Source of the DNA: Neocallimastix lanati (nom. inval.)
Lineage: Eukaryota; Neocallimastigomycota; Neocallimastigomycetes; Neocallimastigales; Neocallimastigaceae
Direction: 5' to 3'
NCBI GenBank assembly: GCA_016946835.1
Contig: JACVTC010000116.1
Location: forward strand, 187,501-251,500
Length of the DNA: 64,000 nucleotides
Shown here: piece after piece, positions 16,249 to 52,750 of the stretch
Layout: every line of letters starts with the position of its first letter
Position numbering within the stretch: the stretch's first letter is position 1
Notes under the pieces: generated by a model
What the model was told of the DNA's origin: nothing
Seen by the model: the letters and a program-made list of their open reading frames with translations, nothing else
The model's database searches: none
Position numbers and translations under genes: made by a program

Positions 16249-17695
16249 TTAAACACTCATAAGAGTAGCATTATTTTGATATTGTGGTACAGTTTCTCTC
16301 TTAGTAACTCTTCTCTTAATAGAAGTTGCACTACGACTAATACCTCTCTTTACAGTTGTAAATGCTTCTGGGAATTTTTGCTTTAAGTCTTCATAGGTAT
16401 TTGGACTTTTTCTTTTCATGAAGATCAAACCAGCACCTGCAGCTCCAAGACAACCGCCACCAATGGCGAGAATACCAACAGCACCTAAACCACCTTCTTT
16501 TTCTTCATCAACAGCTTTATTTACTTGATCGACTGGTTCTGCTGGACTTACAGTAATAGCAGAAGCAGAAACATCATTATTAGCATCAATTTCATTAGCT
16601 GGGGTAGCAATTTGATCTGATGGAGTACCAATTTGATTAACTGGAGTAGCAATTTGATTAACTGGAGTTGCTACTTGATTAACTGGAGTACCAACTTGAT
16701 TAATTGAAGTAGCAACTTGCTTAGGTGGAATATTTTGATTAATTGGAGTTTGAACTTGTTTAACAGTTGGAGTTACAACCTTCTTTGTAACTAATGGGAA
16801 TGGAGCTCTACTTGTACTTACAACAGATTTAATTGTTTTAATTGTTTTAGTAGTAGTAGTAGCTTTCTTGGTAACTTTATCTTCAGCACTAGCATTCTTT
16901 GAAAATTCAATATTACTATCACTACTAACAGCTAATCTTCTTGCACTAGCATTAAAAGCTGAAAGGAAAGCATCAGAAGACATACCAAATTTCTTAGCAG
17001 CTGAACTAGCACTACTGTAGAATGGTCCAGCTAACTTATTACCACTCTTTGAGTATATACCCCAAACAATCTTGGCAGTACCCTTACTTTCACCAACAAA
17101 CTTCGTAAATGCTTTCTTTGATAAATCAAGATGATACTTAGCACAAGAACTACAAGAATCAACAACTGTAGCCTTACCTATTGTATGGAATAATTATATA
17201 ATTAAATATAATTAAAATATAAATAAAATGAACAATGAATACATATTTAAAATACTATTTATATTTATTTATTTAAATTATTTTTATTCATATAAAGTTA
17301 TTTATCCAAAACATACCTAATCTACTTCCATATTCATATGGGAAAAAGATTGCATAATGACCACAATAATCATCATAATGAGATAATTTTGTACTCTTTA
17401 ATTATATAATTTAAATATATTTAATAAATATTATTATTTAAAATAATTAATTATTTGAATCAAACCAAAATTTTAAAATAAAATTTGAATAAATAAAATA
17501 TTATTCACTTACTAATGCAGCAAAGTTAGTTGGAAGATCGTCATCATCAAATTGTGGACATGATGGATTTCTTTGAGCTGAACATTCTTCTGGACAACCA
17601 TAAAATGTAATTTCATTTTCAGCTTCTCCACCACTGGCGAATACTGAAGCAACAGATATTGTTAATAAAGTAGTAACAAATTTTAATAATTTCAT
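16249..17695 (-). CDS. membrane-anchored expansin-like (DPBB) protein, paralog 1, 396 aa
   Basis: Three exons: 17513-17695, 17317-17395 and 16249-17177, with GT-AG introns of 117 and 139 bp (donors GTAAGTG and GTATGTT). Residues 1-20 are a signal peptide. The exposed domain (about 25-150) is a double-psi beta-barrel of the expansin/RlpA/Barwin type: EITFYGCPEEC at its start, DYCGHYAIF, then KATVVDSCSSC and the YHLDLS motif, then IVWGIYSKSG and LAGPFY. Six or seven Cys suit a secreted protein. A Lys/Thr-rich stalk follows, with heptads of the type ATPVNQI repeated about six times. A Gly-rich helix (about 318-341, ILAIGGGCLGAAGAGLIF) spans the membrane and a basic tail of about 55 residues begins MKRKSPNTYE. 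The DPBB fold suggests non-hydrolytic binding or loosening of polysaccharide or a wall-associated role at the cell surface; that is inference. It is the leftmost of five paralogs, all on the minus strand. Confidence 0.88.
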
Positions 17696-19654
17696 TCTTA
17701 TTTATAAATAAAACTTATTAATAAAATATCAATAAAAAAAATCACTTCACTAAATATATTATTTTTATTATAAAATAAAATAATTTTCTTTAGTTTTATT
17801 TTTTTTTTATCCAGGAACCAAAAAGTGTATTTATTGAATTTTCACTCCTTTTATAGGATTTTTTAAAAAAAAAAAAAAGATTATCGAGTAAATAGGGTGT
17901 TGTTAATAATAATTTTATTCATAAATAAAAAATTAATAATATTTAAACTTTATATGCAATGTTTTAAAAAATTAAGTAATAACTTTTTTAATTTAATTAA
18001 TTTAAAAAAAAAATGAATTTTCTTTTTATTTTGGTTAAATTAATTTTTTTTATATTAATAATAGAAATTCGAATTAAAATTTTAAATAATAAAAAAAAAA
18101 TAATAATAGTACAAAATTTATTATATCCTATTACTTATAAATATTTATTAATTGCATATATTATATATTTCATTTCTTGTGCAACATATAAAATTGAAGA
18201 AATTTGTATTATTTTTAATGAGAATATATATATTTATAATGTATTATTTATTTAATATTTATATATATAATATTATATTGCAATTTTATTATTCATATAT
18301 TATATATTATGTACTATTATTTATATATTTTATTTTATATATTTTATTTTATAATATTAAATTTTAATTTTTTATATAATCAATAGAAATAAATAATAGT
18401 TAAACTTTAATATTGTATATAATTTTTTTTTAATTTTTAAAAAAGATATTTATTAATATTATTAATATTTCTATTCTACAATAGAGATAGCTAAAAGTTC
18501 AATTTTACTTTTTTATATAGTATTAAAGGCAAAAATAACTTTTTTAATTATTTATTATAAGAAAAATTTTTAATTATAAATAATATATATTATATATATT
18601 AAGATATGAAGTTATTAAGTTTTATAAAGATAAATATATTTATGGTAAAAAGCTTTATTCTATTCCATTTTCCATTTAGGAAAAACTGTAATTTTTTATA
18701 ATTTCTTTATTCAATAAAAGAAAATGTATAATTTATTTTTTATATTAATGAATTATTTTTTGTTTTTATAATATTTTAATATAAAAATAAAAAATAAGTA
18801 CAAAATATAAGTGGTGCAATAATGATAAATAAATGTAATATATTAAATTTGTTATTTCATTAATGATATAGAGAATATTATTATTATTATTATTATTATC
18901 ATTATTATTATTGTTGTTGTTTCTATTTCATTAAATTTTCTGTTATTTTTATTTTTATTTTTATTTATCTACATATATATTTTCACTTTCTATATAAGCA
19001 TAATATATTCGATTAAAATTTTTAATTATTATTAATTATTTTTTTTATAGTATTTTGTTAAAAAAGTTAAATCATAAAAAAATTTAGAATTTTTATTTAG
19101 GATTAGGTCTATAGATTTAAAAAAAATATTTTATTATAATTTAATTCAAATTCAAATTCTATTTAATATAAAAAATTTATATATTTTAGAGTTTTGATTT
19201 AATTTATTATTCTATTAAGCATATATAAATATAAAAAAATAATATAAAATAATATATTTTAAATACTAAAAATTCAATTATTAATATATAGATAACATAT
19301 ATTCAATTTTAAATGTATCATTTATTTTATTAAAATAAATAGGTTAAAATTATAAAATAAAATACAATAACAATAAACTTTTTTTAAATAATTTATTGTT
19401 ATTATATATGAATATATAATTAAATATAATTAAAAATAAATATAAGAATATATAACTAATATATAAAATAATGCATAAAATAAAGAATTTTCAAAAATTC
19501 ATTAAATTTTATTTATTATTTATTATTTGAATATTTCAAAGTTTATTAAATTTTTATACAAACGAAGTTATTCTGTGTAACCTTTATTTGTATTTAATAT
19601 TTCTATTTCTTTTTATCTGATTATTATTATTATTATATTTAATATAATATTCTT

Positions 19655-19795
19655 ATTATTTATTATTATTTATTATTATTTATTATTATTTATTATTATT
19701 TATTATTATTTATTATTATTTATTATTAATATTTATTATTATTTATTATTATTTATTATTATTTATTATTATTATTATTTATTATTATTGCTTTG
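19655..19795. repeat. 10-bp tandem repeat (TTTATTATTA)
   Basis: About 13 units of TTTATTATTA with one TTAATATTTA variant near 19726. A simple repeat with no coding sense. Confidence 0.8.
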
Positions 19796-20860
19796 TTATT
19801 TATTATTATGATTATTATTGTTAATTCTAGTAGTATTTATAATATAATGATTATTACTTTTATTATATAAATAAATATAATTATGATATGAATATGTTAA
19901 CTTTTAAAATTAGTTTGTTTTGAAATATCTATTGATATTTATATTATATGTATTGTATATATATTATTTTAAATTATTAAAATAAAAATAGTTAATATTA
20001 AAATATATATTATTTATTATATATATTATATATTTCATTAAATATAAAAAAACAACTTTTTTTCATAAGTATAGATTTTTTTTATGCAATTAAAACTATA
20101 CATTATACATAAATAATTTGTGTTTGTATTATAACTATTATCATTTTTCTATTAATTTTGTCATTGTTTAATTTTTTTTTAAAAAAAAAATATACATATA
20201 TATATTTTATTCTATATTTAAATTAATCATCCATATTTATTTTTGTTTTTTCATTTTATTTTATGAAAATGAAAAGCTTTTCTTAATACTATTTAGCTTC
20301 CAAAACATTATCTCTTTTTCTTCCTTATTTTTTTATCTTTATAATAATTTTTATATTATCTTACTATGTTGTAATATAACGAATTCAAAAAAAGTCATTT
20401 ATTTTATAAAATCTATAAACATTCAAACATAGTTAAATAATAATTGATGATAATATAAATATATTATTTCATAAATGTTAATATTTCATTTTTATTTTAT
20501 TTAAAATATAAAGTTAAAAAAAAAAAGATTGCAATTAGCAGCTATATTACAGAATAATTGCTACCTTTTCATATTATAGATATTTTAAGTATTTTTTAAT
20601 CAAAAAATAAAATATTAAATCAAAAAAAAAAAAAAAAGTTAATTATTTTTTCAAGCCTTTTTAAACTAAAATAACCAATACTTTTTATTTTTATTTTTGT
20701 TTAAATTTTATTAAAATTAATAAATTAAAGTTCAACTACTAATTAAAAGAAAGACCTATATTAAATTTTTTTTTTTTATTTTGGAGTAGAGAGCCCCTTT
20801 TTTTTCTTATTTTTATTATTCTGTATAATTAAATTTTGAAATTTCCATTTTTAGACATAA

Positions 20861-20924
20861 GTATTTTTTTATAGTTTATTTTATTAATAATAACATTATT
20901 AATAAAATAAACTATAAAAAATAC
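20861..20924. repeat. near-perfect palindrome, arms about 30 bp
   Basis: Left arm GTATTTTTTTATAGTTTATT plus TTATTAATAAT, a 3-nt centre AAC, and a right arm that is its complement apart from one extra T. It could extrude as a cruciform or be a tiny inverted-repeat element. Confidence 0.75.
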
Positions 20925-21429
20925 AGAAAATTCAATAAAAAAAATTATTTTTAAACAAAAAATATATATATTTAACATATTAATATAATTAATAAAAATT
21001 ATTTTGTCAAGTATAATATAATATATCTTAGGTTCTTATCTCGATCTTTTGTTATTTTTTTTTATATTTATATCAAAAATAAATAAATAAATAAATAAAT
21101 AAATAAATTGAAATATTTTAAACAGAATAAGATAATATTAATAATTTATATAATTATGAATTATGAATTTAATAGAAATATTTAAAAATAAAATATAATA
21201 AAATACATTTATTTATAAAGTGTATTTATTTTAAAAAGTCCCTTGTTAATATTTATAAATATGAAAGTTAATAATTTTCATAAATAATTGTATTTTTTTT
21301 GGTATTAAGTAAAAATAAAATATTATATTAATTAAAGTTTTCAGTTGTATCTTATATCGAATAATTTTTTTTTATAACCTTTTAGTCTATATATACTTTT
21401 ACACTATATCATATTTATATACAGTGAGT

Positions 21430-21688
21430 ATAACCAAGAGCAGTGTAATATTCAATAAATATGGGTCATAACATGAATATATAATGTATAACATAGCCAC
21501 AAACTAATTACTTTTCTTAATCTCTAAATAAGGGTAGTATTGAATGATATCCCTTAACAATCATATTAAATGTGACTTAGACAAAGTAAAGGGACTTCTA
21601 TGTTTTTCATAAAAAAAGAATGACGACTAGTTACGTTAGCAAAATTCCAACTTCATTAAAAGGGAATACCCAGAATAGGGAGAAAATA

Positions 21689-21729
<41 letters not shown>
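21430..21729. mobile_element. LINE-related fragment ending in poly-A
   Basis: A GC-richer block of about 260 bp containing CTTAATCTCTAAATAAGGG and ATGATATCCCTTAACA, shared with 38957-39003 (CTTAATCTCTAAACAAGGG, ATGATATCCTTTTACA). It ends in an uninterrupted run of about 38 A at 21691-21728. At the 38.9-kb copy the same words sit next to the GACGTCGACC box of the LINE C-terminus, so this is a LINE piece; its strand is uncertain because the A-run is on the plus strand. Confidence 0.5.
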
Positions 21730-21730
<1 letters not shown>

Positions 21731-21889
21731 TTTAATAAATAGAAATATATAAAAAAAGTTACTTTTCATCTTATCTGTGGTCATTTTATTAGTTTTTAAG
21801 AAAGTTTTTTTTTTTTTTTTTTTTTTATGTTTGTTTGTTTGTTTGTTTGTTTGTTTGATTAGATATGACTTTTTTTTTTTATTTTCAGA

Positions 21890-22800
21890 TGAAATTAAAA
21901 AGAATTACTTTAAATAACAGTTGTATCATTTTCTTGATTATTAACAGTTAAATATTAAACTTCAACAGTTTAAGGAGAATAAATATTAATATATTCATTA
22001 TAATTCGTATTCTTTTTTTCTGAAACTCTATGAATATTATTATTAATTATAAGAGTTTCATTATCGGTAAAGATACAACTAATATAAATAACTTTATTTA
22101 AACCCCATGTAACAATATATTTGTTCTTAAAGTGGTACCTATCTGGGAAACCATTGTTAATTCTAGAAGTAATAAAATACAATATTTCTTAGTGATATCA
22201 TCAAAGATATTTTTTATGGTATGAATAGTTGTTTTGGATTATCAATAAGATCAGCAATACTAATAAAAGAGAAATTTATATATACAGCCTTGTTTACCTT
22301 TGTTTAGTCTACGTTAGTTTTCCATAATAAATATTATAGATTAAGGCTTAATGATTAAAGTTAAAAGAATTATTTTTAAATTATTTTTAATAGCAATACC
22401 GTAAAAGTTAGATTTTTTGGCAAATCCATTATTAAGACTATCAGCAACACTATAAACAAAATAAAAAAAAAAAATAAAAAGAAATATGGTAATGATAATA
22501 GGTATATTATCATCAGATCTATAATTAATTTCATTAAAAATTATAACACCAGTGATAATAGATTCAAGACATTTAATGGTACATTTCATAGTGTTAGAAA
22601 ATTTCTTATTCTTAAAAGTTATAACCAAATTTAAAAAAAATATATATATATATATATATGAATCTCTACCAACTTAATTTATAACCAGTAATATGTTCTA
22701 TATGAATTCTTTGAGAAAGTAAAGAAAGAATGGAATGGAACATCATTTTCAACAGAAATATCCCTCCAATCAGTTTTTTTTATAATAATTATATAAAAAA
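21890..22800 (-). mobile_element. degenerate LINE-like fragments
   Basis: Two minus-strand open pieces, 22182-21970 and 22628-22341, have mixed composition unlike the surrounding low-complexity DNA. The first ends RVSEKKNTNYNEYINIYSP and the second has a strongly hydrophobic centre (IPIIITIFLFIFFFYFVYS). Their layout, a hydrophobic helix followed by a polar Asn/Ser-rich end, recalls the C-terminal part of the LINE proteins elsewhere, and the words GATTATTAACAG and ATATATTCATTATAATTCG recall 45.6 kb. Homology is weak and the assignment tentative. Confidence 0.4.
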
Positions 22801-25860: not shown

Positions 25861-26020
25861 TGCAATAATTGAAAAAATGAAAATATTAGTAAAAATAAAT
25901 TATTTTTTGTAATAAAAAGTGTAAAAGATATTAAATATTAAAAAACATATTAATAAATTGTGAAAAAAAAAAAAAAATACAATGGGTGGAATGAATCTAT
26001 TTCTGTACTACATGAATACA

Positions 26021-26332: not shown

Positions 26333-26540
26333 ACTATAATTACATAACTATTCAAATAAAAAATAATAATAATAAAAAAAAATACATGATGATTAGATAA
26401 ATCTAACGGCATAGTACTATATATAAATGAATGATTCATATGAAAAAATAATAAACTCATGAGAAAAAAAAAAATAATAAAAAAAAGAAAATACGAAAAA
26501 AAGAAAATACTACATTTTTATTACAACCTTAATTATTGAA

Positions 26541-26542
26541 TA

Positions 26543-26632: not shown

Positions 26633-27354
26633 ACAAACAATTAATAAAAAAATAGATATTATTTATTCAAATTGGATTAGTATTATCTACCGAATCTGTA
26701 TCAGATCTTTCACCGGGAGATGAAAATCCATGCCTTATCATTTCGACATCGATGCTCTTGGCAACGGTAGATTCAGTAGATTCAATGGAATACCATTTCA
26801 TCATCAATCTAAAAGATCGACAAATTAATGGTATTACGTTTGTTAGAAACTCCACAATCCCCACAAAATATGGAACAGTCGACGAAGTTGAATTTTGTTT
26901 AAAAATATTGTCAACTAATTGTCTTTGTTCCACATCATTAACTTTAATTTTTGAATATATTGAACGCCCACCAAGAAGAGCACTCAATATATAATAATAA
27001 ATATTATTATCATAATCCTTTTCTGAATCTAAAGAAACATTCAAGGATTTTTGTTCAATTATCATTGCAAATTTTAAAAAGAGATCAGTTAGAAAAGGTA
27101 AAGATTTATTTCTGTAATTTTCCAATTCTTTACAGGCAAAGATCCAGTGAGAAAAGCTAGGTACACTAACACCACAACATGGGCAACATTTAGGGCAATC
27201 TTCTAAGACTATTTTTCTTTTAATGGAAATACTAATCTCAAATTTAAGACAGCACCTAATTCGAGAAATCTAAAAGAATCCTAATTGGTACCTAGGATAT
27301 TGAAATATTAAGCCTTTGATTTCTGAAATAAATCCAAAATCATTCTCCTTGTAT
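26541..27354 (-). mobile_element. LINE 3' part (family A), truncated and interrupted
   Basis: Poly-T of about 65 (26561-26625) is the A-tail seen from the other strand. The minus-strand frame 27125-26667 reads the LINE C-terminal domain: ENYRNKSLPFLTDLF, SEKDYDNNIYYYILSALLGG, RSIYSKIKVNDVEQRQLVDN, a hydrophobic stretch FLTNVIPLICRSF, then AKSIDVEMIRHGF and a polar end. Upstream of it are the zinc knuckle (CPKCCPCCG read through 27160-27200) and the block that breaks at about 27354, where younger LINE ends were inserted. It is about 90% similar by eye to 47380-48060. Confidence 0.8.
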
Positions 27355-27401
<47 letters not shown>

Positions 27402-27470
27402 CAGGGAAGAGAATACACTTAACATTTTATTAGTCTTTGATTTCTGAAATAAATCCAAATTCATTATCCT

Positions 27471-27473
<3 letters not shown>
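27355..27473 (-). mobile_element. ultra-short LINE 3' end with long target duplication
   Basis: Poly-T (about 27357-27398), the family-A terminal word AGACAGGGAAGAGAATACAC, some 12 more bases, and then a second copy of the target: CTTTGATTTCTGAAATAAAT plus CCAAATTCATTATCCTT (27434-27470) repeats 27315-27351 with two differences. It is thus a 3' stub of about 33 bp of element plus tail, flanked by a duplication of about 37 bp. Confidence 0.7.
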
Positions 27474-27508
<35 letters not shown>

Positions 27509-29345
27509 CAAGAAAGAGAATACATTTCCATAACTTTATTAATTTTATTATAAAAAAAATACATGTAGGTGAAAAGTTCATTTGAAAATAAAAATAAAAA
27601 AAAAAAAATTTAAAAAATAAAAAATAAAAAAGCTCAAAAATATTATGTATTTCGGCAAGTTGTACCATGCGGGAATTTTTCCCTTCCTAACAAATAATAA
27701 AGTAATAAGACCTAGAAGTAACATCTTTAAAATAGATAGTGTGGTGTCCACTAAACTCTCCCCGGATTCATCATTTATTGAACTACTAGGGCGAGATTCC
27801 CCCTTCGTTGAAATAGATGATGATCCTGTATTATCATTATGCCTTAACAGTACGACGTCGACGCTCTTGGTTAAGTTTGGTATTTTACAATACCTATCAA
27901 ATAATAACTCAAACGAACTACTTATGATAGGTATTGCTCTTGTTAAGAATTCCGCCAAGCCCACAATTTTTGGAATAGGTGACTCAGATGAACCTTTGAA
28001 AAGTAGTTCATTTAATTGTCTCTGTTCCCCACTATCGAAATGAAGCTCATTTAAAACTAAAGTCCTACCAAGAAGGAACAAGTATATATAATGATTGATA
28101 TAATATTCAAAATAAGAAATAGAGATATAGGAAGAAAGAGGATTAAACGCTCTAATCTTCCTAATGAATAAAACATAGAAATCATCGATGAAATTTAAAG
28201 AATTCCATCTAAAAGATGCAAGAGCATCGCATTTAAAAATCCAATGTTCAAAAGTTTGATTACCTTCGCCACAACAGGGGTAAGTCTTGGGACAATTCTG
28301 AAACTCTACCCATTCTAATAGCAATAGTAGTATTGTATTTATTAACCACAGCGTAAACGTATAATCCATGAAAACCCTAAGTTGAAATGGGGATATTTTA
28401 AGCTAAGAATAATTATATCTTTATTGTTTGAGAACTTATTACAATCGTAGTTTTGACCATTAATACCTTGAAATTTGGAAACTGATTTCCAGTAACGTTC
28501 TAAAATATCGTCATATTTTACACATTTATATTTTTTGATTATTTTATATATAGTGTTCTAGATTCTTTAGTCCATGAATAATATGGCATTATGGGAATAG
28601 ATTTAATAAGATACTTTATAAATACAGTTTGATTTACTCCATTTTGCAAATGACTTAATCTGTAATGCTGCGCAGATACCAGCAATAGGAAGGATGCTTA
28701 GATCTCGAGATAAAGCATAAGTACTCATAATAGAATTATGTCTAATATAGTTATTGTTTTCTGAAATTGTTTTACCATTTTTAGAGAAGGAACCGATAAT
28801 CCAAAATAGACCAGTATTAATTAATGTTTGAATTCTAGCCGTTCTAGAATTGTTTGAACCAAGTAAAGGAGAATAATAAATTACTTTACTAATAATAAAA
28901 GATTGAAGAACTTTTTTCTTGTATACAATAGGAATAAGTTTATTTGAAAAGAAAGGTGTAAATGAAAGAAGGGAATTTTCTAACTTTAAAATGCATGTGA
29001 GATATAATATGTTCTAATAAGAGATCATCTGACAAAGGAATACCAAGATAAATATAACTAGAAACTTTAGGAATAGCATTTATTCCTAAATAAAAGGTTG
29101 GGTTACTATAGTTTGGAGGAGATTGGAAGTTCATTGGTTTTATAACCATAATTGCACATTTTTCAATACCAAAAGTCATTTCATTTGAATTAGCCCATTT
29201 ATGTACCTTTTTTAATAATTTTTCTAAATTTTTTTGCACTTGGAGTGTAAGTGCGTAAGTAGATATTCTATCTGTTATAATTTTTGAAATGATTTAGCAT
29301 CAACCCTTAATGGACCTGGAAAAACAGTCCATATCATTGGGGCAT
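27474..29345 (-). mobile_element. LINE 3' half (family A'), 5'-truncated
   Basis: Poly-T (27472-27505) followed by AGACAAGAAAGAGAATACAT marks the 3' end. The minus-strand frame 28369-27578 encodes the C-terminal part: a zinc knuckle CPKTYPCCGEGNQTFEHWIF with a following C, the LLGRTLVLN segment, GEQRQLNELLFKGSSES, a hydrophobic helix, NLTKSVDVVLLRH, a Ser-rich stretch, and a hydrophobic tail LSILKMLLLGLITLLFV. Upstream (28380-28940) is the RT-thumb-like block, and 29239-28940 holds the piece just after the RT catalytic core (KVHKWANSNEMTFGIEKC, then YIYLGIPLS). The catalytic aspartates lie outside the surviving part. Frames are broken in several places. Confidence 0.8.
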
Positions 29346-30256: not shown

Positions 30257-31678
30257 TTAAACACTAATAGCTGCTGATTCTACTGGTTTAACATTTGCAT
30301 TTCTCTTAGTGAAGGTTCTTTTAACAGAGGTAGCACTGCGACTTAAACCTCTCTTAACATTACTGAAAGCTTCTGGGAATTTTTGCTTCATACTTTCATA
30401 GGTATTTGGACTTCTCTTTTTCATGAAGAGTAAACCGGCACCGGCAGCACCAAGACAGCCACCACCAATAGCAAGAATACCTATAGTACCAATACCACCA
30501 TCATCTTCTTCTTCCTTTTTATCTTCAATAACCTTTTCAACTGGTTTAGGTTTAACTTGTTGAACTGGTTGAGTTGGTTTAGCAGGAACAACGGAAGAAG
30601 TTGCATTAACAGCTGGAAGTTGCTTGGAATCTGGTGTTAATTGTTTAGCTGGGACACCAAGTTGCTTAGTACCTGGACTTTGAAGTGGACCACCAACTGT
30701 GGTTGGAGTTTTTGCTTGATTAGCTAATGGGAATGGAGCTTTAGTAGTAGTAACAGCCTTTGGGGCAACTGGGGTATTCTTTGGAATGGCAGCTTTAGTA
30801 GTAACAATTCTCTTAGTGGTAGCTTTGACTGTAGTTTTTTTAGGTTGTTCAATATGAGCTCCAGAAGCAGAAAATTCCTTAGAACTACTACCACTAGAAG
30901 CTAAACTCTTAGCATTAGCTCTGAAAGCTGAAACAAAAGCATCAGAAGATAAGCCTAACTTCTTAGCAGTACCACTAACACTACTATAGTAAGGACCAGC
31001 AACTTCACTTCCACTCTTAGAGTAAACACCCCAAATAATTGGAACTGTACCATCTTTTTGTTTAGCAATTTTATTGAAACTATTTAATGAAACATCAAGA
31101 TGATATGCAGCACATTCACCGCAAGAATCAACAATTACTGCTTTGGCTATATTATTTTATTATTCATAATATTAAAATTAACATAATACATAAGTTTATA
31201 AATTTATAAGATGATATTAATATATATATATATAACTTTTTCTTAGAGTATAAATAAATAAATAAATAAATAGTTTTTAAATAATTACCAACTGTTTTAA
31301 CATTAGAACCATTAGATGACATGAAAATAGCATATTTATCACAGTAATCTTTGTAATTATGTAATTTTTTACTCTTTATTAATTATTTATATAAAAATAG
31401 ATTGAAAAAATAAAAGAGATAATAAAAAATACAAATTAGTTAAAAAATACATTAAATTTATATAATATTTTAATATAAAAGAAAAGTTAATTATATCATA
31501 CGAGAGCAGCGAAGTATGTTGGAAGATTATCATCATCATATTGTGGACAAGATGGATCTTTCTTAGCATGGGTTTCACCTTTTTGACCATAAAAAGTTAA
31601 TTCATAATTGCTATTGCCACCACAAAATACTGAAGCAATAAGACTTGTGATAATGAAAAGACTTCCTAATAATTTCAT
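30257..31678 (-). CDS. membrane-anchored expansin-like (DPBB) protein, paralog 2, 383 aa
   Basis: Exons 31502-31678, 31289-31373 and 30257-31146 (donors GTATGAT and GTAATTA; introns 128 and 142 bp) join in frame to 383 codons plus TAA. Signal peptide 1-19 (LFIITSLIASVFC end). The DPBB domain has YELTFYGQKGETHAKKDPSC, DYCDKYAIF, KAVIVDSCGEC, YHLDVS, IIWGVYSKSG and VAGPYY. Unlike paralogs 1, 4 and 5 it lacks the first Cys pair (GCPEEC is replaced by GQKGETH). The stalk is rich in Lys/Thr/Pro/Gln (TTKRIVTTKAAIP, KQLTPDSKQLP). The TM helix (GILAIGGGCLGAAGAGLLF) and tail (MKKRSPNTYESMKQKFPEAF) match the family. It is closest to paralog 3, with introns nearly identical to it. Confidence 0.87.
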
Positions 31679-36750: not shown

Positions 36751-38246
36751 TTAAACACTAAGAGCAGCAGCATTTCCATTTGCGTTTCTCTTAGTGAAAG
36801 TTCTCTTAACAGAAGTAGCACTACGAGTCAAACCTCTCTTAACATTACTGAAAGCTTCTGGGAATTTTTGTTTCATGCTTTCATAGGTATTTGGACTTCT
36901 CTTTTTCATGAAGAGTAAACCAGCACCAGCAGCACCAAGACAGCCACCACCAATAGCAAGAATACCTATAGTACCAATACCACCATCATCTTCTTCTTCC
37001 TTTTTATCCTCAATAACCTTTTCAACTGGTTGAACTGATTGAGTTGGTTGAGCTGGTTGAGCAGCAACAACTGAAGAAGTAGCATTAACAGCTGGAAGTT
37101 GCTTGGAATCTGGTGTTAATTGTTTAGCTGGGTTAGCTGGGTTAGCTGGGTTAGCTGGGTTATTTAGTGGGTTAGCTGGGTTAACACCTTGTTTAGTTGG
37201 GTTGGTAACTTGCTTAGTACCAGGAGTTTGAGGTTGACCTCCAACAACACCTGGAACTTGTTTTGGTTGATTAGCTAATGGGAATGGAGTTTTAGTAGTA
37301 GTAGTAACTGGTTTTGGAGCAACTGGGGTATTCTTTGGAATGGCAGCTTTAGTAGTAACAATTCTCTTTGTAGTAGTAGTAGTTCTGGTAGTAGTTGGTT
37401 TGGTAGTTTTTTTAGGTTGTTCAATATGAGCTCCAGAAGCAGAAAATTCCTTAGAACTACTACCACTAGAAGCTAAACTCTTAGCATTAGCTCTGAAAGC
37501 TGAAACAAAAGCATCAGAAGATAAGCCTAACTTCTTAGCAGTACCACTAACACTACTATAGTAAGGACCAGCAACTTCACTTCCACTTTTAGAGTAAACA
37601 CCCCAAATAATTGGAATTTCACCCTCAGATTTTTCACCAATTTTATTGAAAGCATTTAATGAAACATCAAGATGATAAGTACCACACCTACTGCAAGAAT
37701 CAACAATTACTGCTTTGGCTATATTATTTTATTATTCATAATATTAAAATTAACATAATACATAAGTTTATAAATTTATAAGATGATATTAATATATATA
37801 TATATAACTTTTTCTTTGAGAATAAATATATAAATAGTTAAATAATTTTTAAATAATTACCAACTGTTTTAACATTAGAACCATTAGATGCCATGAAAAT
37901 AGCATATTTATCACAGTAATCTTTGTAATTATGTAAACTTGTACTCTTTAATAAATAGATATAAATAGATTAAAAAAATAAAAAAGATAATAAAAAATAC
38001 AAATTAGTTAAAAAATACATTAAATTTATATAATATTTTAATATAAAAGAAAAGTTAATTATATCATACGAGAGCAGCGAAGTATGTTGGAAGATTATCA
38101 TCATCATATTGTGGACAAGATGGATCTTTCTTAGCATGGGTTTCACCTTTTTGACCATAAAAAGTTAATTCATAATTGGTAGAACCATCACAAAATACTG
38201 AAGCAATAAGACTTGAAATAATGAAAATACTTCTTAATAATTTCAT
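36751..38246 (-). CDS. membrane-anchored expansin-like (DPBB) protein, paralog 3, 409 aa
   Basis: Exons 38070-38246, 37861-37945 and 36751-37718; introns 124 and 142 bp with the same donors as paralog 2. The joined frame has 409 codons. The N-terminal 59 residues differ from paralog 2 at only a handful of positions, and the DPBB domain is likewise lacking the first Cys pair but keeps DYCDKY, VDSCSRC, YHLDVS and IIWGVYSKSG. The stalk is longer: RTTTTTKRIVTTKAAIP is followed by a run of about six ANP/NPA tripeptides before KQLTPDSKQLP. TM helix and basic tail are conserved (SPNTYESMKQKFPEAF), ending NANGNAAALSV by reading 36784-36754. Inferred to be a cell-surface expansin-like protein; the substrate is unknown. 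Confidence 0.87.
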
Positions 38247-42300: not shown

Positions 42301-43725
42301 TTAAACGTTAATTTCATCAGGAGATGGTTCTGGAACCTTTATAGTAACTCTTCCTTTAATTGATTTAGCTTTACGAGATAAACCTCTTTTAACATTATTA
42401 AAAGCTTCTGGGAACTTTTGCGTAATTCCTTCATAGGTATTTGGGTTCTTCTTTTTCATGAAAAGTAAACCTGCATCAGCGGCACCGATACAACCTCCAC
42501 AAATAGCAAGAATACCAATAGTAGTTCCTAAACTACTACTATCGTTAGTATTATTCTCTTTTATAGCTTGTTCAACTTTATTATTGGTTTGATTTTGATT
42601 TTGATTTTGATTTGGAGACTTATTAGTATTAGTTGAATTGTTAGAGGCGACACCAGGTTTTACTATAATAGTTGAATTGTTAGAGGCAACACCAGGTTTT
42701 ACTGTAATAGTTGAATTGTTAGGGACTACACCAGTTTGTAACGCATTAGTAGCAATTGAAGTACCGGTTATAGTAGAAGTGACAGTGATAGTAGTAGTAG
42801 TAGTAGAAGTGATAGAACCAGAGCTAGAAGAATTAAAACTTCTAGAACTACTACTACTTGAAGCTAAACTTTTAGCATTTGCATCAAAAGCAGAAATGAA
42901 AGCATCAGAAGATATACCGAGCTTCTTAGCAGATCCATCAACGCTATTGTAGAATGGACCAGCTAATCTACTTTCACTCTTTGAGTAAATACCCCAAATA
43001 ATTTTACCTGTACCTTTACTTTTTTCGCGAACTTCTTTGAAAGTTTCTTCTGATAAATCAAGATGATATTTAGCACATGAACTGCAAGAATCAACTACAG
43101 TAGCCTTTGCTATTAGTTATTAATTAATAAATAATAAAATTTTTATTAAAATACGAAATAATCATTTGGATATTTGATTATTAATTTAACTAAATTTAAC
43201 AAATAATTAAAAATTATTCAAATACATACCAATAGTCTTGATATTACTACCATCAGTCATCATATAAACAGCGTAATTACCACAGTAGTCATCATAGCCA
43301 GATAATTTAGTACTCTTTTCATATAAAATAAAAAAGAAGGGGAAAGAGAAAGAGAGATAAAATATAATTTGTATTAGATATATTATTATAAAAATTTTAT
43401 TTATTATTATAAAAATTTTATTTACTATTATAAAAAAATATATATATATTTAAATTTAAAATTAAATATATTCATTTTTTCTTATTAAAAAAAAAATATA
43501 TTTTTTTCTTATATATGTTATATTATTATATTATTATTGACTTACCAAAGCAGCAAAGTGAGATGGAAGATTATTATCATCATATTTTGGACAAGATGGT
43601 CCTACTTGACCTGTGCAATCATCTGGACAACCGTAGTGGGTAATTTCATAATTAATGTCACCTCAATCTGCATATACTGAAGCAATAGTGAAAGTTAATA
43701 AAGTAATTGCTTTTAATAATTTCAT
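42301..43725 (-). pseudogene. membrane-anchored expansin-like (DPBB) paralog 4, in-frame TGA at codon 21
   Basis: Exons 43546-43725, 43230-43314 and 42301-43109 (introns 231 and 120 bp, GT-AG) join into 358 codons. The frame is open throughout except TGA at 43665-43663 (codon 21), one residue beyond the predicted signal cleavage (ASVYA|D). A Gly codon (GGA) sits there in relatives, so one base explains it. The rest keeps the family pattern: HYGCPDDC, DYCGNYAVY, KATVVDSCSSC, YHLDLS, IIWGIYSKS, LAGPFY. The stalk has 13-residue repeats of the type VASNNSTITVKPG and a QN tract. The TM helix has an Asp in place of Gly (IGAADAGLLF), and the tail is NPNTYEGITQKFPEAF. It is probably a young pseudogene, as no other damage is seen; a sequencing error or a strain allele is the alternative. 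Confidence 0.8.
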
Positions 43726-45592: not shown

Positions 45593-46260
45593 AGTGTGAT
45601 GTATGTTAAGCTCTCCCTCAAACTAAGAGAAATATTATTAGGAGATTCAATTTCCAAAAATTCGTTGTGTGAAGAATGATTATTACTATTTGTGTTAGAT
45701 GAATTTTGAAAGATTAATGATAGAAGTCCTTAATTACTATATTGGTTGGACGTTAGACTCTTTCGGTTGTGAATGCTTTTTTTTTTTTTTTTTTGTTTTT
45801 GTTTTTGTTTTTACTATACCATTCATAAAGTTAATTGAAGAGAAGCTACTAATCATTGGTATAATGTTAGTAGGATCATCCACTATACTAATTGGAATAA
45901 ATTCTAAGTAGAACATTAACAAATAATCCAATGGATAAATGATTGATTACCTTTGTTGAGATATAAACATCATCTAATGAATTCGTTTAAATTTTATGTT
46001 AATATATTTTCAGCTATTTTATTTATTTATTTATTTTTACTAAGAATTAACTTTATTTATTAATATTTAATATATATGTGAATTAAATTAATTAATAAAT
46101 AAATGAATAAATAAATGAATAAATAAATGAATAAATAAATAAATAAAAAAATAAATAAATAAAAAACTACTTTATGAGTTTCGAGGAAGATAGGATCTCT
46201 AACTCTTCTCATTCATTGATGATAACTCAATGAGGATAAAAATTATTATTCGAATATTTA
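45593..46260 (-). mobile_element. LINE C-terminal fragments (family D)
   Basis: The minus strand of 45593-45935 encodes the polar/hydrophobic LINE end: IDDPTNIIPMISSFSSINF with a KTKTKTKKKKKK insertion from a G/T-rich run, then ESNVQPI, and the SLRESL region near 45610. A second short piece at 46185-46250 reads like the EEWEKLEA end of the 47.3-kb copy (CTCTAACTCTTCTCATTCAT). In between lies AT-rich DNA with AAAT/GAAT repeats (46088-46160). Confidence 0.5.
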
Positions 46261-46321
46261 TCAGAATTTTTTTTTTGACTTATAGTTTCTACGATAAGTC
46301 TAATAGTATTAGATAAATTTT

Positions 46322-46645
46322 ATAGCCGCAATTATTACAAACTTTAACATTAATTATTCATTTATTAATTACATGAATATTTTTTATTATAAAAAAAAAA
46401 AATAATAATAATAAAATAAAATAAAAAAAACACAGAATTAATAAAAATAATATTATTAGTCTAATAAGAATATAGTAATATTTAGAATAGTAATGTGAAA
46501 TAAAAAGTAATATTCAAAATAAAGTGTATAAATAAATTCAGCAAAAAATTTCATATGTAACGAACCTTACCTCCAAGATTATAAGATTTCTGTTTTAAAA
46601 GGAATTCTTTTTCAAGATAAGGGTTTGAATTGACTATCTAAAAGA
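46322..46645 (-). mobile_element. LINE family C 3' fragment
   Basis: Begins AGCCGCAATTATTACAAACT (family-C terminus, no long poly-T left) and runs to TTCATATGTAACGAACC and GGGTTTGAATTGACTATCT. The last words recur at 48739-48800 and 12405. It is the 3' untranslated part plus the last codons of the protein. Confidence 0.6.
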
Positions 46646-46649
46646 AGTT

Positions 46650-47162
46650 TATTTTTTTTTTTTTTGGACTAGGAAAAGATTACACTTCCAGTGCGTTATT
46701 AAATAGATGATTATATTTTTATGTATTACATTTTTTAAAAAAATATATATATATTATATAATTTAAAGATAAAAATAAGACATATGTAAAAGGTTAAGTA
46801 AAACAAAAAATAATAAAAATTAAAAAAAAAAAAAAAAAAGTTTTAATTAATCATACAAAAATTTAATGTAATAAAGAATAAAAATAAGGTCAATAGTTAA
46901 AAAATTTTCAGTGTGATTTACATTATGTGTAGTAACATGACCAACAGTTAAATCTAAAATAATAAAACAAAGAAGTAACATCTTTAAAAAAGATAGTATG
47001 ATACCCACTAAACTCTCCCTTGAACCACACAAAAGATCATCAAAAATTGAATTACTTACTATAAATTCTGTGTTCGGAACGGTACTGCTAGTAAATATGC
47101 ATTGATGAGAATTAATAGGACTACCAACTGCACTATTTCTTCGCTATATCGGCACTCTTGGT

Positions 47163-47165
<3 letters not shown>
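46650..47165 (-). mobile_element. LINE C-terminal part (family D), split by a later LINE
   Basis: A short poly-T and GGACTAGGAAAAGATTACAC mark its 3' end. The minus strand 47032-46847 reads CGSRESLVGIILSFLKMLLL, a hydrophobic C-terminal helix like that of 27.7 kb. The element is cut at the word GCACTCTTGGTAAT and continues after 48708, where the same word is repeated. Confidence 0.65.
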
Positions 47166-47210
<45 letters not shown>

Positions 47211-48708
47211 CTTAGAGAATAACTTTATTTAATTTATAATAATAATAAAATTACATGAAATTAAATGAAAAAATAACAAATAAAATACATGAAATAAAAT
47301 ATTATATATTATAAAAATATAAAAGTGCGTTAGAAGCAATAGCCTCTAACTTTTCCCATTCCTCGATAATAACACTACGTCCATTATTGCGAGTAATAAT
47401 TTCAGTATTAGTGTTATCAATCGAATCTGTATCTGGAGGTGAAAATCCATGCCTTATCATTTCGACGTCGACGCTCTTGGTAACGGTAGATTCAACGGAA
47501 TACCATTTCATCATCAAACTAATGATCGACAAATTAATGATATTACGTTTGTTAGAAACTCCGCAATCCCCACGAAATACAGAACAGTCGACGAAGTTGA
47601 ACTTTGTTTAAAAATATTGTCAACTAATTGTCTTTGTTCCCCATCATTAACTTTAATTTTTGAATACATTGAACGCCCACCAAGAAGTGCACTCAATATA
47701 TAATAATAAATATTATTATCATAATCCTTTTCTGAATCTAAAGAAACATCCATGGATTTTTGTTCAATTATCATTGCAAACTTCAAAAAGAGATCATCTA
47801 GAAAAGGTAAAGATTTATTTCTGTAATTTTCCAATTCTTTACAAGCAAAGATCCAGTGAGAAAATCTAGGTACACTAACACCACAACAAGGGCAACATTT
47901 AGGGCAATCTTCTGAGACTATTTTTCTTTTAATGGAAATACTAATGTCAAATTTAAAATCACATCTAATTCGAGAAATCCAAAAGAATCCCAATTGATAC
48001 TTAGGATATTGAAATGTTAAGTTTCTGATTTCTGAAATAAATCCAAAATCATTCTCCTTGTAAATAATTGCTTTTTTTAACTTTTGAGGGTTTGAAGACA
48101 TCCCTTTCCCAATAAAACTTTTTTCATTTCATTTGTTTTTTTACCAATTAATTTCTTATCCAAAGTCCTTGATTCTTTAGTCCATGAGTAATGTGACATA
48201 GTAGGAATATTATTAGTGGGATGATTAATAATACATGATGAATTTTTCCATTTTTTAAAGCATCGTAATTGAGATATTGCACAGATAGCTGAAAGAGGAG
48301 GTATTCTTAATTCACGAGTAATATCATAGAGACTAACAGAAGAATTGCGAGATTTAAATCCATAACTCCAATAAAGTATTCTATTAATAATTTTTTGAGC
48401 TTTAGAACGTCTGCTCTTATTTGAACCAAAGAGAGGAGCATAATATATAACAAGACTAAGAATAAACGAAATTAAAACATATTTCTTCAATGGGAGAGGA
48501 ACAGATTTATTAATAAGAAATCGAAAGTACAAATTTAATTTGACATTTAAATTACTGTTTAATTTGGATTGTATAGGTTTCAGTGATAAAGATTCATCAA
48601 AAGGAATACCAAGATAAGTATAGTTGTCAGTTTTAGGTAATTTGTTACTACCAATAAAGAAAGATGGATCTTCATAGTTTATCGGTTTAACAAAGCACTC
48701 TTGGTAAT
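47152..48708 (-). mobile_element. LINE family A, 5'-truncated, exact 14-bp target duplication
   Basis: Flanked by GCACTCTTGGTAAT at 47152-47165 and 48695-48708; the element is 47166-48694 (1,529 bp). Poly-T (47166-47207) is followed by AGACTTAGAGAATAACTTTA. The minus frame 48532-48077 holds the post-RT block (RRSKAQKIINRILYWSYGF, RIPPLSAICAISQLRCF). The frame 48101-47514 has GFFWISRIRCDFKF, the zinc knuckle CPKCCPCCG...HWIFACK, ENYRNKSLPFL, SEKDYDNNIYYYILSALLGG and EQRQLVDNIF. A last piece (47532-47302) has TKSVDVEMIRHGF and EEWEKLEA. It is the most readable LINE C-terminal half here. The RT core is absent through 5' truncation, and a few frame breaks remain. Confidence 0.9.
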
Positions 48709-48978
48709 GAAAGTGTTTTTGATAAATCTCTCAAAAAGTTCATATGTAAAGAACCTCACCTCTAGATTACTTATTCGGAATTAGGGTTTGAATTGACTAT
48801 CTGAAAGATATTATGGTCTTCTCCTTCATAGACATTGGTACTGCTGGCCTGTCTTACAACATTCTCAGCATTGATGTTCCTGGTTAGTTTGCGCTTGTGC
48901 CGTCGGAATAGTAACCCTTGTCTAGTACTAGCCCGAGGCATAATTTCTTTTAAGAAAGTCTCAGATCGCACCAAGCAT
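48709..48978 (-). mobile_element. LINE fragment between two insertions
   Basis: Continues the split family-D element and then (from about 48739) a family-C-like end: minus frame 48974-48771 reads FRRHKRKLTRNINAENVVRQ, ASSTNVYEGEDHNIFQIVNS. The same C-terminus is at 12684-12388 (NVNAENVMRQ, EGKDHNFFQIINS). Confidence 0.6.
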
Positions 48979-48988
48979 GGCGTTTACT

Positions 48989-49028
<40 letters not shown>

Positions 49029-49590
49029 GGCAGCAAACTTGTTTCATCTTTATTAATTAAATATTTGATAAAATACATGTAATAAAATAATAAAAAAAAA
49101 GATAAAAAAATAAACAAAAAATAAAACACAAAAGAAAATAAAATAATGGTATAATATATTCTAGTTTCATTTAATTAATATTTGTAAGACTTCACAAGGG
49201 CATTATTATACTGAAGTATAATAATTAATTTTGACTTCGCAATGCTAATCATGATACAAAATTATGATCTTCATTGGTTGCGCTAGCCATGCTGGCCTGT
49301 CTTACTGTTTCTTCAGCATTGACGCTCTTGGTAGTAGTAGTACGATTCGATTTGAACCTATTGAACAATAGCAATATGTATAATCGATTGGGGAAGTGCC
49401 GCAGTAACCACTAAGAACGGAGTATCAGAATAAGCACCTGATTTCATCTGGCACTTAAATAGATCCTCCCATTCCCTTGTACTGTTATTAATACTTCGAC
49501 CTCCAAGAAGGAAATTAAACACTTTTTCACACACACTAAAATCAATATACACATTATTTTCAATACTATTACTAACAGGCGTTTACTCAT
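48979..49590 (-). mobile_element. LINE family B, 5'-truncated, 13-bp target duplication
   Basis: Flanked by GGCGTTTACTCAT (48979-48991 and 49578-49590). Poly-T, then AACGGCAGCAAACTTGTTTC; about 430 bp match 34975-35454 nearly base for base. It extends further upstream: frame 49552-49358 has VCEKVFNFLLGGRSINNS, TREWEDLFKCQ, TPFLVVTAALPQSIIHIAI. Confidence 0.88.
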
Positions 49591-49740
49591 AAAGAAGAAA
49601 GAGAGAATGCCTTTTCAGAAATTATACTGATGTCTTGATTTATATCCCATTCATTGTGTCTCGTATATCTGATTGTACCAATGGAAAATTTATTAGACCA
49701 TTCGATTAATGCACTATTTATAGTGAAAAAACAAAAATAA
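49591..49740 (-). mobile_element. LINE fragment right of the family-B insertion
   Basis: The minus strand reads NSALIEWSNKFSIGTIRYTR followed by HNEWDINQDIS, of LINE-like composition, and lies directly after the target duplication. It is therefore probably the continuation of the element that was hit. Confidence 0.45.
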
Positions 49741-49790
49741 ATATTCAAAAAAAAAAAAAAAAAAAAAAAAGAAACAGAAACAAAAAAAGA

Positions 49791-49836
<46 letters not shown>

Positions 49837-49934
49837 TATATATATTTTATTAAATAACTTTTATTTAATTATTTATTTTCTTTTTTTGGATTAATTTTTG
49901 ATTAAATTATTTTGGACTTTTTCGGATTTACAAG

Positions 49935-49967
<33 letters not shown>

Positions 49968-50048
49968 GTTTTTAATCTTTAATAAATACCTTTACTTTAA
50001 TATATTTTTATAAGAATATATTTTTAATTATTTACTTATTTATTATTA

Positions 50049-50079
<31 letters not shown>

Positions 50080-50517
50080 CAAAATAAAAAATAATAATAA
50101 ATAAAAAAAAAAAAATTAAATAAATATATAATTATACATAATACATTAAATATAAATGTAGTATAATGAATTCATTTTTGATAACTTTTTTTTTTTTTTT
50201 CGAATATAAAATTAATAATAATTATCAAAACTATTATTAAGATTTCAAATTATTTTCCATGATTTTTTTCTCTGTTAAGATTTGTCATTATTAATATTTA
50301 TCTTCTAAATTCTAATTTAAAATAATAATAAAAAGAAAAAAAAAAGCTATTAAATTTTAATATAAATTAAATATAATAATTTATAAAAAAAATTTAATAA
50401 AAAACAGTGAAATATGATAAAGTACTACTTCATTTAATAACTATTATAAGATATAAAATGATATATATCTTTTTATATTATCATTTTTATATTATTTTCT
50501 GCTTTTGGAATTTTTTC

Positions 50518-50567
<50 letters not shown>

Positions 50568-50886
50568 ATTATGATTTTCTTTTAAACTAGATTTTTTTTT
50601 AATATATTATTATTAATATATTAAAACAAGTTTGATAAATACTTTTTTTTTTTTAAAAAAAAATTTTTGAAATTTGGAAAATGCTATATTTTATTTTATC
50701 TCTACATTAAAAGTATTTAATAAAATAAAATTATAACAACTTAATTATACTAAATATTAAAATATTATGATATAAATATTTATAAATATAATATAATATA
50801 GATATTATTTTTTTTCAATAATAATAAAATTAAAAAATAAATATTAAATTTTTTGTTATATTATTATTTTACATGGTTTAGCTAAT
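49741..50886. other. AT-rich intergenic DNA downstream of paralog 5
   Basis: No gene; AAT run (49794-49834) and several poly-T runs (49939-49967, 50051-50079, 50529-50566). Confidence 0.6.
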
Positions 50887-52750
50887 TTATACATAGTATC
50901 TACCATCTTCCTCACAATATCCATCATCATTAATATACCTATTATCATAATGATATCTACCATCATAATGATATCTACCTTCACTATGATAATTATTTTC
51001 ATTACGATATCTATCTTCATTGATAAAGCGGGTTCTTTCTTCATTTCTTTCATTATTATTTACACGAGGTAAACTTCTATCATAATTACTTTTACGAGAT
51101 AAACTTCTCTTTACAGTTGCGAAGGCATCTGGGAACTTTTGTTTTATGCCTTCATAAGTACTTGGACTCTTTTTCTTCAATAAGAATAAACCAGCACCAG
51201 CTGCTCCAATAGCACCACCACTTATAGCAAGAATACCAATAGTAGTACCTAATTTATTTTCATTTTCCTTATCTTCCTTTTCCTTATTTTCATTTTCCTT
51301 ATTTTCATTTTGAACGGTGGATAATGTTGGAACTGCATTTGGAGCAATTGTAGCTTGTTCAATATTTGGTAAAGTTTTAGCTGGTATATCATTGTTATTT
51401 CCAAATGCAGGTAGAGTTTTAGCTGGTATACCATTATTGTTTCCAAATGCAGGTAGAGTTTTAGCTGGTATACCATTATTGTTTCCAAATGCAGGTAGAG
51501 TTTTAGCATTATTAATTAAACCGGCCTTAGCTGGTAAAGTCTTTGAATTAGTGCCAATATTGAATCCATTTAAAGGTAAAGTTTTAGCATTACTGTTTAA
51601 ACCTGCTTTTGCTGGTAAAGTCTTAGAATTGCTGAAGTAACCTTGATTAGCAGATGGTATAGATTTAGCATTGTTGGAATATCCAGATGGGATTCTTTTA
51701 CTGTTAATGTTACCATAATATCCAGAGTTACCGGAAGAACCGGAGTAACCTGAACGATTGGATGTACCAGAATAAGCTGGAAGAGTTTTTGTTTTACGAA
51801 CAGTTGGAAGATCCTTTGTGGTTTTCTTAGTTACGTAATTAGGTATTTTTCTAGTAGTTGATTTAGCTTTATAAGAAGTAGTTTTCTTTTCTTTGATTTC
51901 ATCATCAAAATAATCACTAATTTTACCAGAAGTTGAGAATTTAGCAGAATTATGACTACTAGAAGCTAAACTTTTTGCATTAGCATCAAATGCAGAAACG
52001 AAAGAATCTTTAGACAAATTATTTTGCTTTGCACTACCACTAACACTATTATAGAATGGACCAGCTAATCTTTCACCTTTTTTTGAATAAATACCCCAAA
52101 TAATCTTACCAGTACCTTTACTATGTTCTCGAAGTTCTCCAAATGCAGTTTTAGATAAATCAAGGTGATATTCAGAGCATGAACTACATGAGTCAACAAC
52201 AACAGCTCTAGCTGTATAATTTCGATAATTAAATTTATGTCAATTAAAATTATTAGATTAATATTTATTATTTTTTAATATATTCTATAATAATGAAGAA
52301 AGCAATAATAATTAATTTAATATTTTTTAATCATTTATACATGCCTAATTTATCTGATCTGCTACCATCAGCCAACATATAAACTGCATAATGACCACAA
52401 TATTCTTCGTAATTAGATAACTTTGTACTCTTTTTTGTTTAATTTCAATTTATTCAATTTAAATTTAATTGTTTTATAAAAAAAATATTATATATATTAT
52501 TAAACATAAAATGCCTTAAAAATATAAAATAATAATAATAATAATTCCATTATATTCTATAAACACTTACTAATGCAGCAAAGTGTGATGGAAGATTATC
52601 ATCATCAAATTGTGGACATGATGGACGTCTTTGAGCTGAACATTCTTCTGGACAACCATAGAAAGTCATTTCATTGTCAGCTTCACCTCCGCTAGCATAT
52701 ACAAATGCAAAAGAGCAAGCTAATAAAGCAATTGAATTAATTAATTTCAT
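50887..52750 (-). CDS. membrane-anchored expansin-like (DPBB) protein, paralog 5, 529 aa
   Basis: Exons 52571-52750, 52345-52429 and 50887-52211. The introns are 141 and 133 bp; the second has a GC donor (GCATGTATAA) where the relatives have GTATGT. The frame is 529 codons. Signal peptide 1-19 (ACSFAFVYA end). The DPBB domain keeps both Cys pairs: FYGCPEECSAQRRPSC, EYCGHYAVYM, RAVVVDSCSSC, YHLDLS, IIWGIYSKKGE, LAGPFY. The stalk is the longest of the family, with SGYSG/NSGYYG repeats and a 14-residue repeat FGNNNGIPAKTLPA about three times, with more distant KTLP copies before it. It then turns into Glu/Asn/Lys (KENENKEKEDKENEN). After the TM helix (GILAISGGAIGAAGAGLFLL) and the conserved SPSTYEGIKQKFPDAF, the tail is extended by a Tyr/Arg/Asn/Asp-rich repeat (EGRYHYDGRYHYDNRY). 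Confidence 0.87.

Follow-up and report, generated by a model that had tools for sequence, protein, structure and literature searches.

Organization of the gene array

Neocallimastix lanati is an anaerobic gut fungus that digests plant fibre. Within its 199-Mb assembly, a 64,000-nt stretch of the 600,330-bp contig C20 (the window) carries five tandem minus-strand genes of three exons each, G1 to G5, which lie head to tail between positions 16249 and 52750 and encode wall-facing type I membrane proteins, a known kind of protein whose unusual part here is a portable anchor and cytoplasmic tail. The original prediction had described a five-member array of membrane-anchored expansin-like proteins at this place and on this strand, and all five genes were present. 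Hydropathy analysis revealed exactly two hydrophobic segments in each of the five products, an N-terminal signal and one transmembrane (TM) helix, in agreement with the proposed order of signal peptide, DPBB domain, single TM helix and tail.

G1 (17695-16249; exons 17695-17513, 17395-17317 and 17177-16249) encodes 396 residues comprising the signal peptide, DPBB domain, stalk, a TM helix at residues 323-341 (16417..16473; all TM helices were placed by hydropathy) and a tail at residues 342-396 (16252..16416; sequence KRKSPNTYEDLKQKFPEAF...) that ends in MSV. G2 (31678-30257; exons 31678-31502, 31373-31289 and 31146-30257) encodes 383 residues, with the helix at residues 311-329 (30422..30478) and the tail, ending in ISV, at residues 330-383 (30260..30421), while G3 (38246-36751; exons 38246-38070, 37945-37861 and 37718-36751) encodes 409 residues, with the helix at 340-358 (36907..36963) and a tail at 359-409 (36754..36906) ending in LSV. 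G4 (43725-42301; exons 43725-43546, 43314-43230 and 43109-42301) spans 357 codons, with the helix at codons 288-306 (42457..42513) and a tail (42304..42456) ending in INV. The longest stalk, with KTLPA-type repeats, belongs to G5 (52750-50887; exons 52750-52571, 52429-52345 and 52211-50887), whose 529 residues include a helix at 415-433 (51178..51234) and a tail (50890..51177) that ends in YYV and contains an extra Tyr/Arg-rich stretch.

The genes were spliced by hand at GT-AG sites, with one exception, the GC-AG second intron of G5, where the donor is GC. As had been claimed, intron positions and phases are common to all five: intron 1 is in phase 0 (after F-A-A-L) and intron 2 in phase 1 (right before a VVDSC-type strand), and the same positions and phases were found in two hand-spliced relatives on contig C47. 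These models were further strengthened by two uninterrupted database proteins that span all three exons, P0001, which equals G1 except at 3 of 396 residues, and P0002, which equals G2 except at the last of 383 residues. Because their source contigs measure only 1564 and 1442 nt, the sources are probably transcripts. The concern that the TM exon might not be joined to the DPBB exons is thereby probably answered for two of the five genes, G1 and G2; the models of G3, G4 and G5 follow the shared splice sites. Moreover, two repeat families, D12 (289 nt) and D13 (255 nt), each have exactly these five copies within the window, so the likeness across the array exceeds chance.

In the DPBB segment, G2 and G3 differ by a synonymous distance (dS) of only 0.046, which identifies G3, at the level of sequence, as a recent duplicate of G2; the ratio of nonsynonymous to synonymous distance (dN/dS) between their heads is 1.41, from very few changes. 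G4 carries an in-frame TGA in exon 1 (43663..43665, codon 21, right after the signal peptide), at a position that is open in its C47 relative (L027). Since the DPBB segment of G4 against this relative nevertheless gives a dN/dS of 0.19, the stop is possibly recent, allelic or an error, and G4 may be a pseudogene, a polymorphism or an assembly error.

An expansin-like DPBB head

Pfam scans, which covered three of the five window genes (G1, G2 and G5), gave DPBB_1 at about 22 bits in each, below the cut-off of 28.8, and matches such as MCPsignal and Connexin43 in these scans were taken as noise. With Pfam below threshold, the fold was assigned by profile matches to solved structures together with an AlphaFold model of P0002. 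A profile built from nine heads matched solved expansins at E-values of 2.1e-9 to 3.6e-4 and the loosenin LOOL12 at 1.4e-6. The P0002 model has a mean predicted local distance difference test score (pLDDT) of 59, being good over most of the DPBB domain (10-residue means of 84-97 over residues 101-180 and 53-95 over residues 21-100) and low in stalk and tail. Its best solved-structure matches, obtained from the structure prediction that had been proposed as a check, are expansins, a DPBB papain inhibitor, kiwellins and LOOL12; one of the match lists (the VIA list) was not taken as evidence for the absence of any family. Judged by profile and model, the head fold is an expansin-like DPBB of the expansin or loosenin type.

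Specifically, the two Asp, the Cys pair and the His of the pattern D-S-C-x-x-C...H-x-D are invariant in all 12 rows of an alignment comprising 12 of the 14 database matches to the G1 tail (P0005 and P0011 were left out). The Asp of the HLD motif (D105 in P0002), also invariant in 12 of 12, aligns with the residue altered in the Clavibacter expansin D78N entry, a domain-1 Asp that we take to be needed for expansin activity. Fungal loosenins and microbial expansins (LOOL12, EXLX1) thus have the DPBB fold, the conserved Asp and the Cys pattern in common with the window heads. In contrast to them, the window copies add a helical extension (about 45 residues with two helices after the barrel in the P0002 model), a stalk, a TM helix and an inner tail, and no Pfam match to the second expansin domain (Expansin_C/CBM63, PF01357) was obtained in the three copies scanned; a carbohydrate-binding module, a dockerin and the WSC domain (PF01822) likewise had no match in G1, G2 and G5.

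As regards RlpA, the statement that such proteins normally lack an anchor is not precise. The E. coli protein is a lipoprotein, and RlpA as a family places a DPBB domain on a membrane-attached protein, as the window copies do, though it is bacterial, lipid-anchored and set in a peptidoglycan context. Two-domain expansin-like open reading frames (ORFs) elsewhere in this genome, L034 (1281-2039) and L035 (1655-2503), both have DPBB_1 above cut-off and, by eye, a strong TM stretch, followed by a tail unlike that of the array. Two further expansin-like ORFs, L028 and L029, have no obvious TM segment and both end in a conserved NNWWI[RK]NQW motif; Expansin_C fell below the Pfam cut-off in L035 and L029. 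A survey of rumen expansins distinguishes four classes among the eukaryotic ones according to how their domains are arranged, and its main text does not contain the words "transmembrane" or "membrane" (PMC12632131).

One anchor and tail on three head families

The distribution of the anchor and tail was investigated with six tail queries against the fungus's own genome, two of them from the CAP/GH114 side described below, and all converged on one set. The query with the G1 anchor and tail returned 26 matches, with E-values from 7e-50 to 0.145, of which 18 have DPBB heads, four CAP heads and two heads of glycoside hydrolase family 114 (GH114), while the heads of two (C47:317819 and C20:314593) could not be read; the weakest match, C20:314593, stands at 2.6e-7 in another query. 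Sequence and motif served to identify most of the 18 DPBB heads, with Pfam run on five. All four genome CAP heads that were scanned (L055, L057, L058 and L076) matched Pfam CAP (PF00188) at 38.7-48.8 bits against a cut-off of 21.1, and both GH114 heads (L054 and L078) matched PF03537 at 200.3 and 151.9 bits against 27. The two GH114 loci have the head in one ORF and the tail in its neighbour; in the database proteins P0018-P0022, a GH114 head and the tail occur within one protein.

Database searches gave a concordant picture. The G1 tail found 14 matches among 125 candidates, two of them labelled Orpsp1_1, presumably the Orpinomyces genome, and the CAP tail found eight among 505, three CAP and five GH114 proteins, the latter with E-values down to 5.6e-20. 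P0015, a database entry named PR-1-like protein of N. lanati, is identical to a C20 CAP tail. A profile of the DPBB family had at least 31 matches among 7992 candidates scored, including entries labelled Anaeromyces robustus and Orpsp1_1. Moreover, direct comparison of selected rows (15 DPBB tails against 11 CAP and GH114 tails) gave an hhalign probability of 97.4%; the alignment spans 25 columns and is interrupted by a gap of 11 residues at KQKFPEAFTTV. The score was 56.6, whereas 200 column shuffles gave no more than 18.9 and the reversed profile 19.3 (14% probability); the DPBB rows left out the Tyr-less members L023, L024, L025, L031 and L053 and several close copies, including G3-G5. These controls, together with the CAP-to-GH114 matches, make a chance likeness of basic residues unlikely. 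A further tail match on contig C79 (L081, E 6.4) was read as unrelated.

By these comparisons, the anchor and tail form a portable cassette that is homologous across three head families, DPBB, CAP/PR-1-like and GH114, and the idea of an expansin-specific tail was rejected. The original prediction had held that a tail found broadly on unrelated proteins of known function would count against an uncharacterised system, and the present result comes close to this, the CAP and GH114 heads belonging to families with studied members. To our knowledge, no function has been assigned to the tail, over which the Pfam scans made gave no credible match (only DUF1358 at E 0.01-0.05, below cut-off, in two CAP members). 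What is uncharacterised is accordingly the shared anchor and tail rather than an expansin receptor. A CAP domain is common to L055, L057, L058 and L076 and to CAP/PR-1-like proteins in general; here it is followed by a stalk, the TM helix and the shared tail. Ega3 of Aspergillus is a membrane-bound fungal GH114 enzyme (PMC12054363), whereas the anchor and tail of the present GH114 proteins lie at the C-terminus and are akin to those of the DPBB and CAP proteins. No description of the shared tail or of the architecture was found in the accessible open PMC literature, and the membrane-protein survey of anaerobic fungi reports thousands of such proteins, almost half of them bitopic and many unclassified (PMC5168858).

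On both C20 and C47, the DPBB array lies on the minus strand and the tail-bearing CAP genes on the plus strand, separated by about 76 kb and 59 kb, respectively. This repeated arrangement suggests that a segment holding the array and the CAP genes was duplicated between the two contigs.

Constraint on stalk, anchor and tail

The five stalks range from 97 to 224 residues (at the chosen cut) and vary in both sequence and length, with 3-13% Ser and 10-21% Thr. Their dN/dS values are high to intermediate (G4-C47b 0.83, G5-C47c 0.39, G1-C47b 0.87, G1-G2 1.13), against 0.47, 0.42, 0.16 and 0.13 for the TM helix in the same pairs. In the 38-codon tail core, the values fall to 0.30 (G4-C47b), 0.13 (G5-C47c), 0.18 (G1-G2) and 0.03 (G2-G3), G1-C47b being unmeasurable through saturated dS; all are rough, the segments being short. 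Among the stalk, TM and tail rows of the G2-G3 pair, only the tail rows are quoted, the stalk row having been wrongly cut so that it ran through TM and tail. The contrast between a drifting stalk and a conserved TM helix and tail core is real, and to this extent the claim of a changing stalk beside a fixed helix and tail stands; past the core the tails diverge and are little constrained. The proposed juxtamembrane motifs also stood in part, QKFP-AF and VKR being present in all five copies, while P-TYE is better written as P-x-x-Y-[E/D]-x-hydrophobic and the SR varies (TR in G3).

These values bear on the reading in which the tail serves as stop-transfer and topology signal only, its similarity stemming from gene conversion and duplications of recent date. 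In favour of this reading, the basic residues next to the membrane agree with a positive-inside topology, G3 is a young duplicate of G2, and constraint beyond the core is slight. However, the core dN/dS of 0.03-0.30 in measurable pairs occurs at a dS of 0.4-1.6, from which it follows that selection, rather than a recent origin, preserves the core, and P-x-x-Y-x-x-hydrophobic is conserved over three head families. We therefore consider a plain anchor improbable, and a conserved partner of the tail core inside the cell, as originally suggested, is plausible.

Tail motifs and proposed role

A motif [SN]-P-x-x-Y of the YxxPhi type is present in all of 44 proteins, with L, M, I or V at +3 in all 44 and seven residue types at +2. 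This set comprises the five window genes and all 39 database matches, some of them near-duplicates; tail queries themselves had retrieved 22 of these 39. In a wider, overlapping table that includes genome ORFs, 58 of 63 rows have the motif (hydrophobic +3 including F). Of 37 representatives, 28 end in a hydrophobic residue and 18 specifically in Val, for which 6% would be expected. A C-terminal Val can act as a signal for export from the endoplasmic reticulum (ER). In the fungus's own genome, Adap_comp_sub (AP-mu type) matches were found on six contigs and cornichon matches on two. As a precedent, the yeast wall sensor Mid2 has, like the window tails, a YXXPhi motif in its tail; this single motif is bound by AP-2 mu, and the Y278A change reduces the binding by over half (PMC4282331).

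Taken together, the motif in 44 of 44 proteins, the hydrophobic C-terminal bias, the presence of AP-mu and cornichon matches and the Mid2 precedent favour a tail that acts as a surface-delivery and recycling cassette on type I single-pass surface proteins, to which we give a probability of about 45%. In such a scheme, a disordered stalk of variable length would hold the DPBB head outside what is presumably the plasma membrane, with the single TM helix, rich in small residues, as anchor. The YxxPhi motif, about eight residues inside the membrane, might be read by the mu subunits of clathrin adaptors, while the C-terminal hydrophobic residue, mostly Val, could aid ER export via COPII or cornichon-type receptors and the basic repeats could bind the tail to acidic lipids. 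The heads, putative polysaccharide binders, would thereby accumulate, and be recycled, at sites of surface growth such as rhizoid tips.

Several observations weigh against this proposal. The head, a putative polysaccharide binder, is similar to a protease inhibitor as well (5ntb is among both structure and profile matches), with NCBIfam Papain_Inhib and the EXLX1 model both far below cut-off. The CAP and GH114 tails are without the KQKFPEAFTTV block, and for this reason the tail, compared residue by residue, is not one fixed unit. Five divergent DPBB members (L023, L024, L025, L031 and L053; 5 of 63 rows) lack the Tyr, and because L023, with V in its place, keeps the hydrophobic i,i+3 pattern, YxxPhi may be just one face of an amphipathic helix. 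At the C-terminus, 19 of the 37 representatives are without Val, and kinship inflates the binomial figure. Beyond the core, dN/dS is 0.50 (G4-C47b), 1.46 (G5-C47c), 0.94 (G1-C47b), 1.20 (G1-G2) and 0.23 (G2-G3), on 13-16 codons each, so constraint is weak or absent past the core, in a region that includes the C-terminus. The P0002 tail is modelled at low confidence, and the Mid2 mutations that lower AP-2 mu binding are reported to have no in vivo phenotype (PMC4282331).

Longer-tailed DPBB members (L017, L019, L020, L021 and L022) carry, close to the C-terminus, a second motif on the inner side, DG[LY]PR-x-x-[LV]YD, which in L023 and L024 takes the form LYDPP; the five window genes are without such a second motif.

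Alternative readings

The reading that survives best beside sorting and recycling is that of wall or substrate sensors like Wsc1 and Mid2, in which the head would bind a wall polymer, the stalk transmit strain and the tail recruit a kinase or a guanine-nucleotide exchange factor for Rho, the head deciding which polymer is reported. One tail type is common to different heads, and the tails contain repeated units of basic plus Ser/Thr residues that we assume could be read as kinase sites. The genome gave no WSC match, although the control for this search was uninformative, and only two weak Mid2-family matches, which were not used because both have internal stops. Wsc nanosprings have a higher Ser/Thr content than the window stalks, the GH114 heads look enzyme-like rather than sensor-like, and no binding partner of the tail is known, nor was a domain credibly matched over it in the Pfam scans made. 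The layout of a wall-facing outer part, a Ser/Thr-containing stalk, one TM helix and a short tail corresponds to that of Wsc1 and Mid2 (PMC9024836), but the heads here are DPBB, CAP or GH114 instead of WSC, and the likeness is one of layout rather than of directly compared tail sequences. We regard a sensor tail as possible and rank the sorting and recycling tail ahead of it. A broader proposal, that anaerobic fungi swapped Wsc-type sensors for lineage-specific receptors in which exchangeable DPBB, CAP and GH114 heads share one signalling and sorting tail and report different fungal or plant wall polymers via one inner partner, is more speculative still.

It is unlikely that the proteins are chiefly looseners of plant fibre, tethered to the fungal surface for biomass attack and possibly shed by proteolysis, with the tail incidental. 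Activity on cellulose and straw is reported for other anaerobic-fungal proteins that are expansin-like (PMC12632131), and Ega3 provides an example of a membrane-bound GH114 protein (PMC12054363); yet G1, G2 and G5 gave no Pfam match to Expansin_C, a carbohydrate-binding module or a dockerin, and the conserved TM helix and tail core would need a separate reason. It is very improbable that the C-terminal hydrophobic-x-Val is bound by a PDZ domain and so attaches the proteins to a scaffold: ends such as MSV, ISV, INV and YYV fit the class II PDZ pattern, but no PDZ match was found in the fungus's own genome by a search that was positive in 14 of 14 control genomes; as those controls are intron-less, an exon-split PDZ domain could have escaped it.

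Other features of the window

Fragments that by appearance resemble retrotransposons without long terminal repeats lie between the array genes (13464-14207, 26667-29293 and 47302-48730, minus strand), with a weak Exo_endo_phos match in one of the four pieces scanned (13464-13838). A minus-strand ORF at 6268-6819 matches a MULE transposase at 24.5 bits against a cut-off of 27.6 and also an archaeal flagella family, the latter probably by composition. At the other end of the window, a minus-strand gene at 59960-62524 resembles class C G-protein-coupled receptors, with 7tm_3 at 33.4 bits against a cut-off of 33.5 within 59963-61486 and no Pfam match in its upstream ORF (62096-62524). Anaerobic fungi are described as having about 100 class C receptors of this kind with sugar-binding-like domains (PMC5168858).

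Implications

Overall, what had been observed from the sequence was confirmed, and the interpretation placed on it is partly supported. The occurrence of one type of anchor and tail on three wall-facing heads of unrelated kinds points to a module that can be reused to place proteins at the surface and that may also serve as a natural surface-display tag. In the anaerobic fungi covered by PMC6054980, GH114 ranks within the ten most abundant glycoside hydrolase families, and its role is described as little known. The shared tail would give a place to some of its members. Anaerobic gut fungi are efficient degraders of fibre, and the shared tail would offer a short, testable handle on how their rhizoids sense or grip the wall, or on how these fungi manage a wall of their own.

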